Below, in pieces: positions 1,048 to 28,577 of a stretch of DNA of 28,577 nt. Position 1 is the first letter of the stretch. The number at the start of each line of letters is the position of its first letter. The DNA comes from a virus, in IMG/VR virus record IMGVR_UViG_3300037133_000013, positions 1 through 28,577 of that record; one strand, given 5' to 3'. The notes beneath the pieces were generated by a model. It worked only from the letters and a program-made list of their open reading frames with translations, made no database searches and was not told the DNA's origin. Position numbers and translations under genes: made by a program.

Positions 1048-2942
1048 CAATGAAAGCCAAGAACATCATACCAGCAAAGCGGCAACCACTAGGCAGTCTC
1101 GTCTTCTCTTCCCAAGAGGAGATCGCAGCGGCCTACAAACCCAAGACCCAAGAGGAGCTTGGGGCGTCGCTCAAGAGCGGTGGCGAGAAGGCGACACAGC
1201 CCGCGGTTCGAATCAGTAACGGCAAGAAGCACGTCGACATCACGATGGACGAAACCAGCGAGAAAAGTGACGAGGACGCCAAGGCGCCTAATCTCGTAGC
1301 ACTGAGCGAGAAGGCGGGAAAGAAGAAGCCAACGGTAGAGCCGGTGCCTACTGTGCCGCCGACGAAGTCTGAGCTGCACCGAGCGCTGAAGCACGTCGGG
1401 TTCAAATTCGCCCAGGCCGTCAGAGCTGGCGACGCCGTCGCTTACGGTTACGTTCATAAAGACAAGCGAGCGGTGATGCTCACCGTCGCCGCCGACGGCT
1501 CTGAGACTTGGGTGGCCAGGTGGCCGGTGGCGGAGAAGAACGAAGAGAGCGGCGATGATGTCGCGAAGTTGGTCAAAGCTCTAAGCATCTCCACCGCGCG
1601 TCGTCAAGCCTCCTTGGATCGCACCGCAAAGCAGTTGGCGGCTGACAAGGCCAAGGCCGCTGAACTAACCGAGGCACAGGTGGAGGCGGCTAAGGATACG
1701 GACGTTGCCGTAGTAGCCGCGCCAGTCGTTACCCAACTGCTGCCAAGCGGGCCGCCAGATCACGTCTGCAAGGCTCTGATGATGCTGGACAATCTTACCG
1801 CTCATCAGTTCAATATGGACCTGCTGCGCGGAGACAAGCACTACAGCGACCGCGTGGCTCTGCTGCGTACTCTGTGCAATCGTGGCAAGGGCGATTACAA
1901 GGCAGCTGAAACCGGCATCAATCTACTGACCCAAGGGTTCTACACCTCGGTTGGTGTCGGTGAAGGAACATCAAGAGCGGCCCAAGCTAATACCTTCGCC
2001 GAACGCTGCGCGGACATCGTAAAGACGTTCAAGGCCGCTCAGGCCGCGGCTCGTAAGGTGGAGAAGAAAGCCCAGCTGACGGCTTGGCGGGTGGAACGGA
2101 CCAAGTACGAGGTGCCTGGGGTAATCCTTCCGCACAGCAAGCCGATGAGCAAGAAGCAGCGTGCTGTTAAGGACGCCGCTGCGCGAGAAGAAATTCACGC
2201 TCGCGTTCTGGCTTTAGCCGTCAGCCCAGAGCAGCCGGCGGTCCCTAACCCGGACGTCGAGCTCAACCTGGTCGTCGATGAGTTACAATTACTAGAGGAC
2301 CCGAAGAACCATCTGGTGATGATGCAGATGGAACGGGCTAACTCCCAGGGCGCCATTTGCATTTACAACAACGGTAGTAGAGTAGCGACAGGTGTCGTGC
2401 CGTTGGAAACTCTGAGGAAACTGCGACCTGTAAAGACCGATCCTGAAAATGGGTTAGACGTCAATACGATGTTGCTGCAAGTCGCTCACCAGTTACTAAA
2501 TCCCACCGTTCCCGGGGTTCCAGTAACGCCCGTGGCCGCACGCCACTTAACCGCAGTTACTGACTGCAAGGAGCTTACCGTGAAAAACGAAACAGCAGTT
2601 TCCTCGGGTCGCAAGTTCGCAGCACCCGCCGCCGCCACGAAGTCAATCGTCAAGGCCGCCAAGGCGCCCAAGGCCGCCAAGGCGCCCAAGGCCGCCAAGG
2701 CGCCCAAGGCGCCCAAGGCGCCCAAGACCGCATCGACACCGCGTGGCTCCTACGTCGGCAAGAAGATCAAGGTGCTGAACAAAAAGCATGACGCGCGCGA
2801 AGGCACGAAGCGCGCCAAAGCGTTGGACATCCTTCTTTCGGCCAAGACCACCGACGAGGCGATTCCGAAGCTGGCGAAGATCGGCGCGAATAACACGTTC
2901 ATCGCTTTCGCCATCGCGCAGAAGTTCATCGCCCTGGCATAG
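1044..2942 (+). CDS. Large unrecognised protein with histone H1-like Lys/Ala/Pro tail
   Basis: A 632-residue protein that starts at an ATGA overlap with the preceding gene. Residues 1-100 are charged and low in complexity. Residues about 110-510 look globular but match no family I know. At about 537-560 lies a tract of KAAKAP and KAP units, encoded by the 18-bp unit AAGGCCGCCAAGGCGCCC and its 9-bp halves (2652-2723), like the tails of bacterial H1-like proteins. After the tail comes a compact basic domain (about 568-632) with a helix-rich end. Binding to nucleic acid is likely from the tail. An internal GTG with a strong ribosome site (see 2568-2582) may give a separate 120-residue product. 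A hairpin follows the stop. Confidence 0.8.
   Translation: MTMKAKNIIPAKRQPLGSLVFSSQEEIAAAYKPKTQEELGASLKSGGEKATQPAVRISNGKKHVDITMDETSEKSDEDAKAPNLVALSEKAGKKKPTVEPVPTVPPTKSELHRALKHVGFKFAQAVRAGDAVAYGYVHKDKRAVMLTVAADGSETWVARWPVAEKNEESGDDVAKLVKALSISTARRQASLDRTAKQLAADKAKAAELTEAQVEAAKDTDVAVVAAPVVTQLLPSGPPDHVCKALMMLDNLTAHQFNMDLLRGDKHYSDRVALLRTLCNRGKGDYKAAETGINLLTQGFYTSVGVGEGTSRAAQANTFAERCADIVKTFKAAQAAARKVEKKAQLTAWRVERTKYEVPGVILPHSKPMSKKQRAVKDAAAREEIHARVLALAVSPEQPAVPNPDVELNLVVDELQLLEDPKNHLVMMQMERANSQGAICIYNNGSRVATGVVPLETLRKLRPVKTDPENGLDVNTMLLQVAHQLLNPTVPGVPVTPVAARHLTAVTDCKELTVKNETAVSSGRKFAAPAAATKSIVKAAKAPKAAKAPKAAKAPKAPKAPKTASTPRGSYVGKKIKVLNKKHDAREGTKRAKALDILLSAKTTDEAIPKLAKIGANNTFIAFAIAQKFIALA
2568..2582 (+). 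promoter_or_regulatory. Possible internal ribosome site and GTG start for the H1-like tail domain
   Basis: AAGGAG at 2568-2573 stands six bases before an in-frame GTG at 2580. Initiation there would release the last 120 residues (the Lys/Ala/Pro tail and C-terminal domain) as a separate small basic protein. The spacing is ideal and the site falls at a junction between globular and tail regions, but no direct evidence of use can be seen. Confidence 0.4.
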
Positions 2943-2975
2943 CTCTCGCGCTCTCCCGACACCGTTGTAACATTG

Positions 2976-3004
2976 ACGACCACCTCTAACCGCGAGGTGG
3001 TCGT
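2976..3004 (+). terminator. Strong hairpin between the first and second gene groups
   Basis: A perfect 11-bp stem ACGACCACCTC / GAGGTGGTCGT with a 7-base loop, then TCTATGTTT, which is only a weak T-rich tail. It lies between the stop at 2942 and the ribosome site at 3014-3021. It may terminate or attenuate transcription or protect the 3' end of the upstream message. No clear promoter is visible between it and the next gene, so full termination would leave the next operon without an obvious start. Confidence 0.6.
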
Positions 3005-3027
3005 TCTATGTTTGGAAAGGATGCCCT

Positions 3028-3609
3028 ATGCTCACGAACGTAACCAAGCTGCACACCGAGTTGATCGAGGCTTGGTGCCAAGGTCAAAAGCCGCTGGTGA
3101 TGATGAATGAACTTGATCGTTTGATCGCCGCTCAACACCATCATAACTACACACTCTGGCGGCTGGAGGACATAGCTAGAACGCCTGGTTTACCTGACGC
3201 TGATCTGGCTAAAACCAAGCGAGCCATCGACGTCGAGAATCAGCTGCGCAACGATGCCGTCGAGTGGATTGACGAGTGGTTACTGGTCAAAGCTGGTAAG
3301 CAAGTCATCTACGCTACACTACACTCCGAATCACCCGGTCTTATGATAGACCGACTGTCGATCTTGTCCTTGAAGGTTTTTCACACCGGGCTGGAGGTTG
3401 CCAGGGCTGAGGCTCCTCCAGGGCACGTTGCGCGAGCTCAGGCCAGGCTTGAGGTACTCCGCACCCAGCGCGAGGACCTCTCAGCCTGTCTGGTTGAGTT
3501 CTGGGAGGCTGTTATGAACGGCGTACGAAGGTTCAAGGTTTACCGTCAGTTAAAGTCTTACAACGATCCTGATCTGAATCCTGCGATCTACGGGAGGGAG
3601 AAGCGATGA
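3028..3609 (+). CDS. DUF4254 family protein, partner of the adjacent glycosyltransferase
   Basis: A 193-residue protein that matches DUF4254 along its length. It shows the Gln-His...Asn...Leu-Trp...Glu-Asp segment at 36-48, the Asp..Asn-Gln..Arg-Asn-Asp...Asp-Glu helix at 68-83, and the hallmark SPGLMIDRLSILSLKVFH at 102-119. In bacteria DUF4254 genes often lie beside glycosyltransferases in surface polysaccharide clusters; the biochemical role is unknown to me. Here it overlaps a glycosyltransferase by four bases inside a nucleotide-modification operon, which suggests work on a modified base or its sugar donor (inference). The start is set by GGAAAGGA at 3014-3021. Confidence 0.85.
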   Translation: MLTNVTKLHTELIEAWCQGQKPLVMMNELDRLIAAQHHHNYTLWRLEDIARTPGLPDADLAKTKRAIDVENQLRNDAVEWIDEWLLVKAGKQVIYATLHSESPGLMIDRLSILSLKVFHTGLEVARAEAPPGHVARAQARLEVLRTQREDLSACLVEFWEAVMNGVRRFKVYRQLKSYNDPDLNPAIYGREKR

Positions 3610-15637: not shown

Positions 15638-16350
15638 GCTCTCATCTCCTTGCGTCTCGATCTTTCGTCAATCCAGCAGGGTCCTGATAAGTCGTCCAAG
15701 CTGGAACGAATGAAACCTGGAAAACCAAAAACTGGAGTTACCCAACTGATCGTAACGGTGCCGTCTATTCCCTGCCCACCGTTGGTGCCCCTGCCCCCAT
15801 TTGCACTACCGCCGTCACCACCGACGCCAAGTGTTATGGTCCACGTCGCTCCGGGAACGCTCGATACGGCGCCGGTTCCATAGTCGCCGTTGCTTCCTGT
15901 ATTCGCCGTCGCTGCGCCAAACCAACCACTGCCTCCACTGCCGCCACTGGAGCCCCCGTACGTTGTGAACGTCAAACCGATTCCTATATTCGATCCATGC
16001 TGACTCCCATTGGAATCTACCGAGCCGCACCCTATACTTGACCCGCCGCCAGACGCACCACCGCCGCCGCCGCCGCGGACCTCTAGGCTCAATCCACTAC
16101 TAGTTATCGTCGTGGTGAACCCGTAGCCTCCATTTGAGCCGTCTACCGATATTTCACAGTCGCCGCCCCCGCCCCCTCCGCCGCCAGCACCGTTCATTGT
16201 CACCGTAACCGAGGTTACTCCGGCAGGAACCACCCAATATTGGGTGTAACCGGCCCCCGATGTGAAGGTGCAGGGGCTAACTGTGCATAAAGCGAATGAC
16301 TTCGTCGTGAAGCACAGCGCGATTGTTAGCAGAAAAATTGCTCTACGCAT
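15634..16350 (-). CDS. Secreted glycine-rich adhesin-like protein
   Basis: A 238-residue protein from the ATG at 16350 (GGAGG seven bases upstream, TGATG overlap with the fibre stop); a GTG 21 bases earlier would mask the signal peptide MRRAIFLLTIALCF..SFA. The mature part starts with WVVPAGVTSVTVTMNGAGG, the motif of phage glycine-rich tail domains, followed by three Gly-rich blocks with runs up to eight Gly. Such poly-Gly regions build the receptor-binding tip of T-even gp38 adhesins. It lies directly after the large fibre and so may be its tip or helper. The last 25 residues are charged and unlike the rest. Confidence 0.75.
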   Translation of the reverse strand: MRRAIFLLTIALCFTTKSFALCTVSPCTFTSGAGYTQYWVVPAGVTSVTVTMNGAGGGGGGGGDCEISVDGSNGGYGFTTTITSSGLSLEVRGGGGGGASGGGSSIGCGSVDSNGSQHGSNIGIGLTFTTYGGSSGGSGGSGWFGAATANTGSNGDYGTGAVSSVPGATWTITLGVGGDGGSANGGRGTNGGQGIDGTVTISWVTPVFGFPGFIRSSLDDLSGPCWIDERSRRKEMRA

Positions 16351-19307
16351 CAGTTCGCCTCCGCCGTCCACGGCTTGTGCGGCCAGGTGATTGTGACCAT
16401 CTGGAGGTTGCTGGTTCCATTTCCTAAATCTCCCTGCGCGCTTATCTGAAAGTTGATAATACTACCAGCCGAACACCCCGACATCGTAGTTGAATTTAGC
16501 TGCAACGTCTGCGTATACGGAGTATTGGCTGTGCTGCCCGTAGTTGTGGTAGAGAACGTCTGAGCCGCAAGCCAACTAGGATCGTCGGTGGTCGAAGAAC
16601 ACGCGCCTTGAATCGAGTAGATGATCGGTTGTCCTGAAGATGAAGTTGCTTGTGTAAAGTTCACACGCACGTATGGATACTGGGATGTATCCCAATCTCC
16701 GGGAACCTCGTCTTGGAACTGTGCGGAACCTCCGCTGGCCCCATTGAATTGCAGGTAACCTGTTTGTACGTTGCTACCAGTACGACACACCGCGGTGGGG
16801 TTTGTATAACCAGAGAGAAGCGTAAGTCCGTTGCCGGCCGTTCCATTGTTGCAGTTCGCCGGCACTATCTTCTCTGGCAGCCACGCATCTGGAGGTGAAC
16901 CACTGAGCTGTGAGTAAGCGACTTGGGCGCAAGTTGGCGCGGTACCATTGGCGATGGCATCGACATACTGCCCTGACGTACACGTGCCTGGGCCGGGCCA
17001 AGATGACGACGTTGGTATGGTTGGTGGGCCGGTGAGCAGTGAGTATGGAATGCTTCCGGTGCTTAGAGTACCAACTCCCGTGATCCCTGTGTACGAGCCG
17101 CTGATCCTTCCGGAAGCCACAGTTCCACTCGAAAGGTTATTGGCATTACTGGCGTAAGTTTGGGCGTTAGACTGAGCCGTAGCTGCGGAGCCGCTAGCAT
17201 CATAGGCCGTTGATGCTGTGAACGCCGCGGAGCCGAACACGCCGCCAGATACGGTGGTGAGGCTCGATAGAGTCGTAACACTCGACGTCACGAATGATGA
17301 TGCCTTGTAGCCGCTGTCTAGTATCGTTGTGCAGCCGGTGTTGCCGCAAGATGCGAAGTCGTTCACCGTGGAACTGCTGCCGCCTGGGCCGGTAACGGGG
17401 TTGGTCAGCGCGTTCTGCTTTCCGTTCCAATTACTTTGATCCGTCGTCGTCGGCATGTAATAACCTGCCGCGGCCGAGGCAGTGATGGATGTGGAACCAG
17501 ATCCGGAAAGAATGCCACCCAGTGTGATGGTCTGATTGCCGGTGAGGTACGTCGTGGTGCTAAGTGCGAAGGTGCCTGCGGCCGTCATCGTCACGAATGG
17601 CGTACCCGTTGACCAGACCGGGTAGTTCAAAGCAGCCCAGGTCCCTAGCGTCGGAGGACCGCTGAGTTGAGAGTAGGCTATGGTTGCGCAGTTAGGCGCA
17701 GACCCGTTTGTTAAGCCGTTTACATACTGACTTCCAGAGCACGATCCGGCGTTAGGCCAGCTAGATGACGTCGGCACGGTCGGAGTACCGGTAAGCTGGC
17801 TATACGGCAGTGAGAGACCTGACAACGTATTCAGCGTCGAGTTACTAGAGGCGCTAATGTTGCCGACGGTAAGGCTCGAGGCCGCAACGTTAGCCAGTGT
17901 ACCAGAGGCATTGGTGAGTATGTAATTATTGGTGCCGCTTGCGATGGTGGTGGTGCCTACCGTGATGGACCCGGCCGATGCCGAGATCGTGCACGTCCCG
18001 CCCAGGGCGCAGGTCTGCCCGTTGACGGTCGTCGACGTAGCCGGCGTGCCGGTGAGCTGGCTGTATGCGATGGAAAGACCGGATATAGCCAGGTTGCCCA
18101 GCGTTCCGGCGTTGTTAGAAAGCAGGTAACCAGACGTGCCGCTGGCTACGCTCGTTACCCCGACACTGACGGTGCCGGCCGACGCCGTGATGGTGCAGGT
18201 TCCGCCTAGAGCACAGGTCTGCCCATTGACGGTCGTTGACGTAGCCGGCGCGCCGGTGAGCTGCGAGTATGGCAGCGACAACGCCGAGAGCGTCGTCAAC
18301 GTCGAGTTGCTCGATGCCGTCACGTTGGCCGCGGTGCCGGTGGTACTCTGGTTCCACGTCGGAACTGAACCCCCAAGCTGTGCGTACTGCACCACCGCAC
18401 AGGTGATTCCACTGGTGGTCGTGCCGGTACCGTACTGCCCAGACGTGCAGCTGCCGGTCGCGGCAGGTGAGTAGCCGATCGTACCCTGCTTACCGTTCAG
18501 TTGCGTCTGAATGGACGACGTGGCGTCCAGGTAACTCATCGTCGTCGGCGTTACGCCGTCGATGGTGATCCCGGTCAAGGTTGCAGGCACGTCGGCATTT
18601 ACCAGGTATCTAAATCCTGGGGTCGTGGCTGAACCCGTAGCTGGGCCGGCGAGGAACTGATTAGCCAGTTGGTTGTTAATACTAAAGACCTGCGAACCAG
18701 AGGCACTGAGTGTCGACGGCGTGGCCGTCATGAACGACGGAACCGTCCAGGCGATACTGCCGACGCCGCTGCTAGCACCAGTGAAGGTGCATGTCGTAGT
18801 GGTGCAACTTACGCCAGAACCAGAGAAGGTAAAGGCTCCAGCGGTTCCGTTGATCTGCGTCACGCCAGACGAGGTACTGGTAACCCAACCGGTGGGCGTG
18901 CAAACGTACTGTGCACTGTGCGTGGTGTCCGTATAGGGCCGTCCCAGCGGGTAGAAGTCCAGCGTGACGCCGGTGTTGCTAGCCGTAGCGTTAGCCGTCA
19001 GAGTCACCTGCACCGATACTGTGTTCACCGCACTTACTGTGGTACTGGACGGTATGCCGGTCCCAGTCACTAGTAACCCTGGCACTAGGCCCGCCACGCT
19101 AGCCACCGCCACATTAGGACTGCTTAGCACCGTGGTGCCAGTAGTGACGTACGGGCATGTCGCGCTCGACGGTACACCAGCGCCGGTAGCTTGATACCAA
19201 TTAACTTGCGTCACCGGGTTAACCTGCGACGCTTGGCCATAAGCAAACGTCGCAGTAAACAGGGGCAGTGCTAAACTAAACAGAGTAAAAATATGCCGCA
19301 TAGACAT
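16350..19307 (-). CDS. Large repetitive tail-fibre-like protein with signal peptide
   Basis: A 985-residue, Ser/Thr/Gly-rich protein. The N-terminus is a clear signal peptide (to about residue 26, YGQA), which is odd for a phage fibre. The body holds repeats typical of trimeric fibres: (I/L)(A/P)YSQLTG-TP modules, two 68-residue units sharing TTVNGQTCALGGTCTI (DNA copies 204 bp apart, around 18010-18060 and 18214-18264), and two SSWP..G.C.(S)GQYV units. The C-terminal 150 residues are non-repetitive and could be the binding head. GGGGGA precedes ATG 19307; ATG 19301 is possible. It overlaps the upstream gene by 32 bases. Confidence 0.8.
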   Translation of the reverse strand: MSMRHIFTLFSLALPLFTATFAYGQASQVNPVTQVNWYQATGAGVPSSATCPYVTTGTTVLSSPNVAVASVAGLVPGLLVTGTGIPSSTTVSAVNTVSVQVTLTANATASNTGVTLDFYPLGRPYTDTTHSAQYVCTPTGWVTSTSSGVTQINGTAGAFTFSGSGVSCTTTTCTFTGASSGVGSIAWTVPSFMTATPSTLSASGSQVFSINNQLANQFLAGPATGSATTPGFRYLVNADVPATLTGITIDGVTPTTMSYLDATSSIQTQLNGKQGTIGYSPAATGSCTSGQYGTGTTTSGITCAVVQYAQLGGSVPTWNQSTTGTAANVTASSNSTLTTLSALSLPYSQLTGAPATSTTVNGQTCALGGTCTITASAGTVSVGVTSVASGTSGYLLSNNAGTLGNLAISGLSIAYSQLTGTPATSTTVNGQTCALGGTCTISASAGSITVGTTTIASGTNNYILTNASGTLANVAASSLTVGNISASSNSTLNTLSGLSLPYSQLTGTPTVPTSSSWPNAGSCSGSQYVNGLTNGSAPNCATIAYSQLSGPPTLGTWAALNYPVWSTGTPFVTMTAAGTFALSTTTYLTGNQTITLGGILSGSGSTSITASAAAGYYMPTTTDQSNWNGKQNALTNPVTGPGGSSSTVNDFASCGNTGCTTILDSGYKASSFVTSSVTTLSSLTTVSGGVFGSAAFTASTAYDASGSAATAQSNAQTYASNANNLSSGTVASGRISGSYTGITGVGTLSTGSIPYSLLTGPPTIPTSSSWPGPGTCTSGQYVDAIANGTAPTCAQVAYSQLSGSPPDAWLPEKIVPANCNNGTAGNGLTLLSGYTNPTAVCRTGSNVQTGYLQFNGASGGSAQFQDEVPGDWDTSQYPYVRVNFTQATSSSGQPIIYSIQGACSSTTDDPSWLAAQTFSTTTTGSTANTPYTQTLQLNSTTMSGCSAGSIINFQISAQGDLGNGTSNLQMVTITWPHKPWTAEAN

Positions 19308-26419: not shown

Positions 26420-27982
26420 CTAGCCGGTGGCGTACAACTGCGCCCACTCTTGTTGATTGCGTTGCACTTGCTTAGCAGATTCGTCACGAAGTTTTGAGAT
26501 CACGTGATTCGATATCTGCTCTGGACTGGCGCCAGGCTGCGTCACGTTGATGACGATGCTGCCGACCTGCACACTTCCGGTGGCGCCGGTGCGGGCCAGC
26601 ACGGAGGCGATGTAGTTCTTGGTCTCGTTCGGCAGCGTAGCTTTGCCGGCCAGAAAGGCGTCCATTCGGCCTGGGCCGGCGTTGTAAGCGCCCAGGGCCT
26701 CGGGCACGTTGCCGCCATAATGAGCCAGCATCTGACGCATGTACTCTGTGCCACCGGCCAGGTTCTGCGCAGGATCGTGCGGGTTCACACCCAGCGCCTT
26801 AGCGGTGCCAGGCATGAGCTGCATGAGACCCATCGCGCCCTTCGGACTAACGGCTTCGTTGTTCCCGCCGCTTTCCTGGCCCATCATGGCGTTGACGAGC
26901 GTCGATGATGGGGTGAAGCCGCCTTGAGAGGTTAAACTGCTCTGGTCACCACCATGCAAAGCGAAGTGCCGATATAAATCAAACCCACCACCAGCTGCGG
27001 CTCCTACGCCGCCACCGATGAGCGTCCCAGCGGCTCCGCCAGCAATACCCTCGGCGACGATTCCAACAGGGCCGCCCGGTATTCCGGCGATACCGCCGAT
27101 GATGGTGCCTAGTACGCCGCCCACGGCCGCACCACCGACGGTGCCTGTGAGCAGGCCGATAAAGTTTGAAAGGTAGTCTGTAGCTACTGCGATCCAATGC
27201 ACCACGATCTCAATGGAGTGGGCGAACTTGTCGAAGCTGGCTACGCCCATCAAAGTGTGGTCGCCGCTGAGCAGGCCAACGATGGTGTCAAACACGCTGG
27301 CGAAGTCCATCGCTACCTGCCAGACGTCCGTCATGATTCGCCAGATGTCCTTCAAGATCGGCACCAAGTACGTAGTTAGCTTGCTAGCTATCTGCGGCAG
27401 ATTCTTGATAAACCACTCATTGAAGTCACGCAGCTTCTTCAGCAGCACATCGGCACCCGGGCCTAACGCGCGCATCAGGTCGTTGACGATAGCAAAACCC
27501 AGATACTTTACGCCTACCTCAAGGCGTGTGACCTCAAACCGTACATCACGAACTTTGCGCATATTAGCGTCAAAATCCGGCCCAATCTCGGCGGTCATCA
27601 TTTTCTGGTCTTCAATAAGCTGACGCGTGCGGCCGCGCAGCTCCGTATCCCACATCAGGTTCTCAAGCGGCTGCCCGAGCGCGTCCATTGCTACCTTAAG
27701 AGACCTAGCCGCGTCCTTGGACATATACATGTGAAGTGCGAAAAGTCTAAAATCTTGGTCAGCCATCGCGACCTTGTCCACCATTCCAAGAATAGCACCG
27801 CCGATGGTAGCAAAAGCGCCAACCAATGTAGCCTCAACTTTAAGGGCGCCACTGGCGATGTCCGCTAGGTTGGTAGTCGCTACTGATGTTGCTTCTTGGA
27901 ATGCGCGCTGGAAGTGCGCCATACCAGATTGGTCGACCACGGCGCCGAGTTTGATCATGTATTCGTCTAAGATATTTGGCAC
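26420..27982 (-). CDS. Tape measure protein with a lytic transglycosylase domain
   Basis: A 520-residue protein. Residues 1-275 are mostly helical, with hydrophobic stretches. Residues about 280-333 form a long Gly/Ala-rich hydrophobic stretch that could insert in a membrane. Residues about 362-465 are a soluble lytic transglycosylase domain: catalytic Glu370 in GQESGGNN, GAMGLMQLMPGTA (382-394) and AYNAGPGRM (432-440). It sets tail length and cuts peptidoglycan during DNA entry. At about 0.15 nm per residue the tail would be near 80 nm. The GTG start directly follows the chaperone stop with AAGGAGG upstream. Confidence 0.9.
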   Translation of the reverse strand: MPNILDEYMIKLGAVVDQSGMAHFQRAFQEATSVATTNLADIASGALKVEATLVGAFATIGGAILGMVDKVAMADQDFRLFALHMYMSKDAARSLKVAMDALGQPLENLMWDTELRGRTRQLIEDQKMMTAEIGPDFDANMRKVRDVRFEVTRLEVGVKYLGFAIVNDLMRALGPGADVLLKKLRDFNEWFIKNLPQIASKLTTYLVPILKDIWRIMTDVWQVAMDFASVFDTIVGLLSGDHTLMGVASFDKFAHSIEIVVHWIAVATDYLSNFIGLLTGTVGGAAVGGVLGTIIGGIAGIPGGPVGIVAEGIAGGAAGTLIGGGVGAAAGGGFDLYRHFALHGGDQSSLTSQGGFTPSSTLVNAMMGQESGGNNEAVSPKGAMGLMQLMPGTAKALGVNPHDPAQNLAGGTEYMRQMLAHYGGNVPEALGAYNAGPGRMDAFLAGKATLPNETKNYIASVLARTGATGSVQVGSIVINVTQPGASPEQISNHVISKLRDESAKQVQRNQQEWAQLYATG

Positions 27983-28231
27983 TTAGTGGCCTCCTTGCTG
28001 CCGCGCCTTCCACTCCGAGTAGCGGCGAGTGTTTTCCTCTTTAACGTCTAGGTACTCCAAGGCGTCGCAGAGGTCTTGCACGTCGTATGTACCGTCAAAC
28101 GTCTCATGCTGACGCCACAGCCCAGCGGCGACGGGACGCCAAACCAACGCATCCAGGGTGTGGAAGGGCGCGGGGTCCCAACCTAGGTCGCCGTCGTCGT
28201 TGCCCCGCCCGTACGCAGAAAAGACGCGAGA
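27983..28231 (-). CDS. Tail assembly chaperone extension, apparently read by -1 frameshift
   Basis: This frame is open from 28231 to a TAA that abuts the tape measure start, yet has no good start near its beginning. It reads as real protein (DDGDLGWDPAPFHTL ... YDVQDLCDALEYLDVKEENTRRYSEW) and lies in the -1 frame relative to the upstream gene, which it overlaps by 49 bases. That is the arrangement of phage lambda G/GT chaperones. The likely slip point is TCTTTTCTG at 28224-28216 (Phe TTT re-pairs with TTT); GGGCGGGGC at 28210-28202 is a second option. The fused product would be about 200 residues and helps assemble the tail tube around the tape measure. Confidence 0.75.
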   Translation of the reverse strand, partial: SRVFSAYGRGNDDGDLGWDPAPFHTLDALVWRPVAAGLWRQHETFDGTYDVQDLCDALEYLDVKEENTRRYSEWKARQQGGH

Positions 28232-28575
28232 CTAAACACCAAGGCCTCAGTGGTCAGCTGCGTCACCAGGTTAGGGTCGTCCTCCAGCTCTGGTACCGCC
28301 CAGCGCCCGTCCGACATCTGTACCGGCATGGGCTGCTCATCGGTAGCACCGGCAGGACGCTCTAACCTACTCGTCACCGCGAGCGCGGCCTTCTGCACAA
28401 ACTCCATCTCCTCAAAGGTCAGGAACATGAACCCAATACCGCAGGTGGTTCGGAGTCTGTCCTCAGGCGTGGCCTTTGCCAAAGCCTCTTCGATGCGGGC
28501 TTTGTCCTCGGCGCTTTGCTCTACCTGCGCAGCCGCGGATTGCGACTGCGCCGACCTGAACATAGCGGCCATCAA
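28183..28575 (-). CDS. Tail assembly chaperone, short form
   Basis: A protein of at least 129 residues. An ATG lies at 28572 and a TTG at 28575, but the frame is open to the window edge, so the true start may be outside. The N-terminus is Ala/Gln/Glu-rich and helical; the middle carries EEMEFVQKAALAV; the end reads SFLRTGG. I recognise it by its position just before the tape measure gene and its -1 overlap with the downstream frame, not by a family motif. It corresponds to the G form of lambda-type chaperones. Confidence 0.65.
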   Translation of the reverse strand: MMAAMFRSAQSQSAAAQVEQSAEDKARIEEALAKATPEDRLRTTCGIGFMFLTFEEMEFVQKAALAVTSRLERPAGATDEQPMPVQMSDGRWAVPELEDDPNLVTQLTTEALVFSLASFLRTGGATTTAT

Positions 28576-28577
28576 GC

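Follow-up and report, generated by a model that had tools for sequence, protein, structure and literature searches.

A probable -1 frameshift in a phage tail assembly chaperone gene, at a U_UU.U tetramer in the place of its relatives' T_TTT_TTN heptamer

The programmed -1 frameshift of lambda G/GT was reportedly described, together with its conserved counterparts, by Xu et al. in 2004. For lambda, a product ratio of 30:1 has been reported (PMC5009743), so that shifting of a few percent would suffice. Two classes of -1 motif, Z_ZZ.N tetramers and X_XX.Z_ZZ.N heptamers, are distinguished by Sharma et al. (2014; PMC4066793). In E. coli, the same source places U_UU.U third among 16 tetramers when a stimulator is present, the order of the best six being A_AA.G >> U_UU.C > U_UU.U > C_CC.U = C_CC.C > A_AA.A. 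With a strong pseudoknot these six gave 0.26-5.6% shifting, and almost none without it (PMC4066793). For P2-like phages, no structure is reportedly predicted downstream of TTTTTTG (PMC3091744). In the annotated phage set of PRFect, most frameshift overlaps contain no heptamer (PMC10885494), and a non-heptamer site in a tail gene is thus not new in kind. Among the papers listed, titles and opening lines of abstracts mention no tetramer or other non-canonical site in phage tails, which we do not take as absence from print.

The window analyzed here is a virus DNA record of 28,577 bases with a tail module encoded on its minus strand. Of the gene for the tail assembly chaperone, G, the window holds the 3' part, an open 0 frame (28183..28575, minus strand) that ends with the TAG at 28185-28183. 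Its 5' part is cut off by the end of the window (28577), and relatives place the start upstream; in the relative L002, the whole of G occupies 2887-3393, counted from the first ATG. The second frame, T (27983..28231, minus strand), consists of 82 codons and a stop at 27985-27983, and can be reached from G by a shift of -1. Directly after this stop, the GTG at 27982 starts the tape measure gene (26420..27982, minus strand), whose product has an SLT transglycosylase domain (PF01464, E 6.7e-23) and matches tape measure family phrog_167 (E 2.7e-10). The gene order upstream was read in one relative, L002, as sheath, virion structural protein, G, T and tape measure; the gene preceding G is annotated there as 'virion structural protein' and would be the tube by position. 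On this order, T is a downstream -1 frame between tube and tape measure. From the sheath and virion structural genes of L002 and the baseplate hub and wedge matches downstream in the window, we infer a phage with a contractile tail, judged by its relatives' genes.

The 0-frame protein is related to tail assembly chaperone families, although the match of the window clade itself is weak. At E 0.01 or better, phrog_1688 and PF21822 (Phage_TAC_15), both tail assembly chaperone families, were matched by 44 and 46 of the 58 aligned G rows, respectively. G of L015, a member of the window clade, matched phrog_1688 with E 0.0017 and PF21822 with 18.2 bits, below the cut-off of 22. The AlphaFold model of this protein had a pLDDT of 91 and no significant match in the PDB, the HK97 chaperone 2ob9 appearing at E 1.4. 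In phage records, no protein match of G was found at E 0.1 and no DNA match of the G/T region.

Several features of the neighborhood were recorded alongside. In contig IMGVR_UViG_3300023101_000041 (L004:2509-3153, minus strand), about 670 extra bases separate the stop of T from the tape measure gene. They hold a 214-aa ORF on the opposite strand, which we take by eye to resemble an HNH/AP2 homing-type endonuclease. The tape measure protein of L006 is 94% identical to that of the window (26420-27982). For L007 the best segment reaches only 61%, although in G/T DNA the L007 contig shares 93% identity with the window. Close phages thus seem to have partly exchanged their tape measures. Two long ORFs of the window were without family matches: one of 985 aa on the minus strand (16350-19307) in PHROGs and Pfam, and one of 632 aa on the plus strand (1044-2942) in PHROGs.

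G and T overlap by 49 bases (28231-28183, minus strand; 28183..28231), as the initial annotation had described. Both frames are kept in four close contigs with about 93% DNA identity. Across these five contigs, 39 nt of the overlap (28230-28192) are identical, and variable columns are rarer there (2 of 49) than elsewhere (60 of 543), although with p 0.08 this low variability is a tendency only. Among the overlap's 16 in-frame heptamers, not one follows the strict X_XXY_YYZ pattern, which bears out the initial annotation. It had proposed TCTTTTCTG as the slip site, with full re-pairing limited to one codon. Indeed, full one-codon re-pairing within the overlap is offered solely by the tetramer T_TTT (U_UU.U; 28219..28222, minus strand), which contains the Phe codon TTT at 28221-28219 inside TCT TTT CTG (28224-28216). 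The re-pairing codon would stand in the A site if G_TCT_TTT is the reading and in the P site if T_TTT_CTG is. T_TTT (28222-28219) is also the sole shift-prone tetramer of the overlap and allows the A-site re-pairing that defines Z_ZZ.N motifs; upstream in G, the six shift-prone tetramers occur at a background of 206 in 9357 codons (2.2%). The site had been called non-classical. This is correct with regard to the heptamer, but U_UU.U belongs to the Z_ZZ.N class, which PMC4066793 treats as recognized and measured in E. coli. Since the site is invariant in the five close contigs, substitutions among them do not set it apart from neighboring positions.

A search with T, followed by one with a T alignment, yielded at least 130 loci, for which the viral scan supplied the best 80 of 210 matches. 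L032, with 19 T residues at a contig edge, was left out and two phage records were added, giving 131 loci, 98 of them distinct around the T core; a third phage match, AB434P3, lies outside this survey. For alignment, a subset of the 98 was used, with 58 rows for G and 59 for T (58 loci plus the window). An in-frame TTTTTTN in X_XXY_YYZ phase was found in the G/T overlap of 85 of the 98 distinct loci (again with the best 80 of 210 from the viral scan), N being C in 60, T in 16, G in 7 and A in 2. Maximal runs of at least six T in the 300 nt that precede the T core were in this phase in 87 of 90 cases, and in the inspected loci TTTTTTN falls on F-F or F-L of G. TCTTTTCTG occupies the same place as this TTTTTTN, and together with its being the only shift-prone tetramer of the overlap this supports the proposed slip site, an assignment by homology in which the place was read by eye from the G motif. 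In the unverified record L013 (MT840050.1), the G-like reading seems by eye to change frame before the T frame, which may reflect a sequencing error or a second shift.

Lineages near the window carry TCT TTT TTG (L021, L022, L025), AGT TTT TTG (L019) or CCT TTT TTA (L034) at this place. Compared with their T_TTT_TTG/A, the TCT TTT CTG of the window clade leaves the G protein unchanged, and the second codon can no longer re-pair. L033 also has CTG, but carries another strict heptamer, GGGTTTT, one codon earlier. TTTTTTN is absent from 13 distinct loci, three of which form the window clade. Strict heptamers of other sequence are present in two of the 13, L033 and L075 (GGGCCCT and CCCTTTC in the latter), while G is cut by the contig end in L065 and not intact in L109 and L143. 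This leaves the window clade, L018, L046, L053, L057 and L088 as heptamer-less with an intact G. Their tetramers are T_TTT (window, L046, L053), T_TTC (L057) and C_CCT (L018, L088), each at the matching codon, as judged by eye, or one codon before it. In five of these six the tetramer is the sole shift-prone one of the overlap; L088 has two, which makes its site ambiguous. The tetramer sites probably descend from heptamers, so their agreement is not independent evidence for each of them.

These comparisons suggest that the U_UU.U of the window is a remnant of a T_TTT_TTN heptamer, decayed to a weaker known motif. On a quick, weakly supported tree of 38 rows (8 of 35 inner branches starred), built without L088 and L075 from an alignment that included the slip columns, at least four changes between the heptamer and tetramer states were counted. 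We tentatively propose, as a possibility that we rate below even, that the classical heptamer decayed several times independently (in the window clade, L018, L046 and L053/L057), each time leaving a tetramer with A-site re-pairing. The least that programmed -1 frameshifting requires would then be A-site re-pairing and not the full heptamer, and RNA structure or host tRNAs would offset the loss of efficiency.

Our preferred reading, which we consider very probable on the sequence comparisons, is a G/GT pair in which a minority of ribosomes slip by -1 at the U_UU.U left from a T_TTT_TTN heptamer and thus make a G-T fusion. Most ribosomes would read G through to the stop at 28183. In the minority, the Phe-tRNA on TTT (28221-28219) would slip back by one base onto the overlapping TTT, and reading would continue with Ser-Ala-Tyr-Gly (...LASF-SAYGRG...). 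If it begins at the MTDK start of L015, the predicted fusion is about 230 residues long. If lambda is a guide, G would cover the tape measure protein, and subunits of the tail tube would be brought in by the T part. The occurrence of slippage and its frequency, its timing in the A site, the role as a chaperone and a possible RNA stimulator are what we infer here. Overall, the sequence evidence supports the initial annotation, which had proposed that the chaperone gene contains a programmed -1 frameshift.

We favor the A site as the place of slippage. Alternatively, the Phe-tRNA could slip at the same site, with the same product, while it occupies the P site and the Leu CTG codon is empty or slowly filled, T_TTT_CTG being a degenerate heptamer. 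P-site re-pairing at T_TTT_CTG is perfect, and the heptamer of the relatives covers the same seven bases. However, L046, L053 and L057 have lost full P-site re-pairing and kept A-site re-pairing, and the most efficient motifs in E. coli are described as allowing cognate A-site re-pairing (PMC4066793); L018 (CCT TAC) and L088 (CCT ACG) are compatible with either timing. P-site slippage thus appears rather unlikely, although it differs from A-site slippage in timing only, so that the probabilities assigned to the two are not exclusive. A -1 shift at another point of the overlap, such as G_GGC_GGG (P codon 28209), is very unlikely. There, each site re-pairs at two of its three positions and neither can re-pair fully, and the relatives use a different place.

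One argument against slippage at U_UU.U is that tetramers are reported to shift very little in E. coli unless a strong stimulator is present (PMC4066793), and the fold downstream in the window is ordinary. A possible stimulatory hairpin (28166..28210, minus strand) has the 5' arm GGGCGGGG (28210-28203), which begins 8 nt after the TTT codon, and a 3' arm within 28175-28166. All five contigs preserve the 6 bp of its core, and the single change in the stem of L005 replaces a bulge by a G-U pair (seen in the fold of L014, from the same contig). Folds of 57 and 77 nt were compared with dinucleotide shuffles, and folds of 60 nt with 60 shuffles each. The window gave z values of 1.35, 0.21 and 0.24, so its downstream folds are not more stable than shuffled sequence; at 60 nt the window had 0.24 and L014, of the same clade, -0.16. 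Being no more stable than shuffles (z 0.21), the hairpin is unproven as a stimulator. Over the 85 heptamer loci, many of them related and thus not independent, the mean z of the downstream fold was -1.2, with z < -1 in 56%. The nine other rows (eight loci and the window) had a mean z of -0.6. Among them only L018 stands out, with a strong hairpin just after C_CCT (z -3.0), which, if the slip sites did decay repeatedly, would suggest that RNA structure can offset lost efficiency. No Rfam match was found in the window at the gathering score. We rejected a pseudoknot between the loop CGGCGAC and a downstream GTCGCCG, since one of its pairs is disrupted in L002 without compensation. The initial annotation had suggested that the mechanism may rely on an extra RNA structure. 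This is plausible, since Z_ZZ.N motifs were almost inactive without a stimulator in PMC4066793, but the stability of the window's own fold does not add to it.

The T frame is protein-like up to the tape measure gene, as had been claimed. Of the 20 columns that vary among the five contigs after the overlap, 18 are third positions of T codons (binomial p 2e-7, assuming independent columns); of the 40 before it, 32 are third positions of G codons (p 2e-9, on the same terms). Ka/Ks of T was 0.00-0.09 between the window and three of its four close relatives. The lack of a convincing start, also noted initially, was confirmed: the T frame of the window contains no ATG, and its TTG (28147), GTG (28081) and TTG (28060) are each missing in at least one of the four close relatives. 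Codon phase, Ka/Ks and the comparison of start codons together indicate that T is selected as a protein without a conserved standard start. A separate protein that starts inside the T frame is most improbable. Such a start could use the TTG or GTG codons of the window or the CTG at T codon 25, which is kept in all five contigs, and among 95 distinct loci with a placed site 33 have an ATG between site and T core and 37 only GTG or TTG. However, 25 of the 95 have none of the three codons there, the five contigs of the window clade share no ATG, GTG or TTG in the T frame, and there would be no need for a slip heptamer in phase within the overlap. That an assembly or sequencing error split one gene, or that T is decaying after heptamer loss, would fit the absence of the relatives' heptamer from the window clade, but has a negligible probability given the same frames in four further contigs and the Ka/Ks of T against three of them. 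Transcriptional slippage is unlikely on a run of only four T.

T of the window matched Pfam DUF6889 (PF21829) with 31.4 bits, above the curated cut-off of 23.9, and also phrog_4364. At E 0.01 or better, PF21829 was matched by 58 of the 59 aligned T rows and phrog_4364 by all 59; because the rows were collected using T, the PF21829 matches show unity and not independence. The AlphaFold model of the window T had a pLDDT of 84.5 and no significant match in the PDB, and a literature search on DUF6889 found no paper in the collection searched. In the annotated records of Agathobaculum phages AB434P2 and AB434P3, which match T, the T region carries no annotated feature, yet AB434P2 (L012:2932-3180) has GAT TTT TTC close to the end of the gene before T.

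The frameshift itself is standard, and the gains are modest: a likely function for DUF6889/phrog_4364 and a series of decaying slip sites. In most loci surveyed, this family of unknown function is likely the tail that a frameshift adds to a TAC_15-type chaperone, and searches restricted to heptamers miss members of it. The series from heptamer over partial heptamer to tetramer offers a panel for the minimal slip needs of the bacterial ribosome. If the repeated decay to tetramers is true, phage tail genes would be natural experiments on the minimum for programmed -1 frameshifting.

Like lambda G/GT, the predicted pair of the window combines a -1 shift near the end of the chaperone gene with a short T extension that adjoins the tape measure gene (PMC5009743); it differs in that T is DUF6889 and the slip site a tetramer, not a heptamer. 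The P2 E/E+E' frameshift at TTTTTTG likewise lies between the major tail and tape measure genes (PMC3091744). This very heptamer is found in 7 of the 98 distinct relatives of T, whereas the window has TTTTCTG, whose second codon cannot re-pair. With the Z_ZZ.N tetramers (Sharma et al. 2014; PMC4066793), known also from IS1- and IS3-family elements, the window shares U_UU.U and its cognate A-site re-pairing. That study surveyed insertion sequences for these motifs and used a strong pseudoknot when measuring them, whereas here the motif lies in a tail gene and its stimulator is putative. The pair would work like lambda G/GT and P2 E/E+E', with which its gene order and chaperone family place it.
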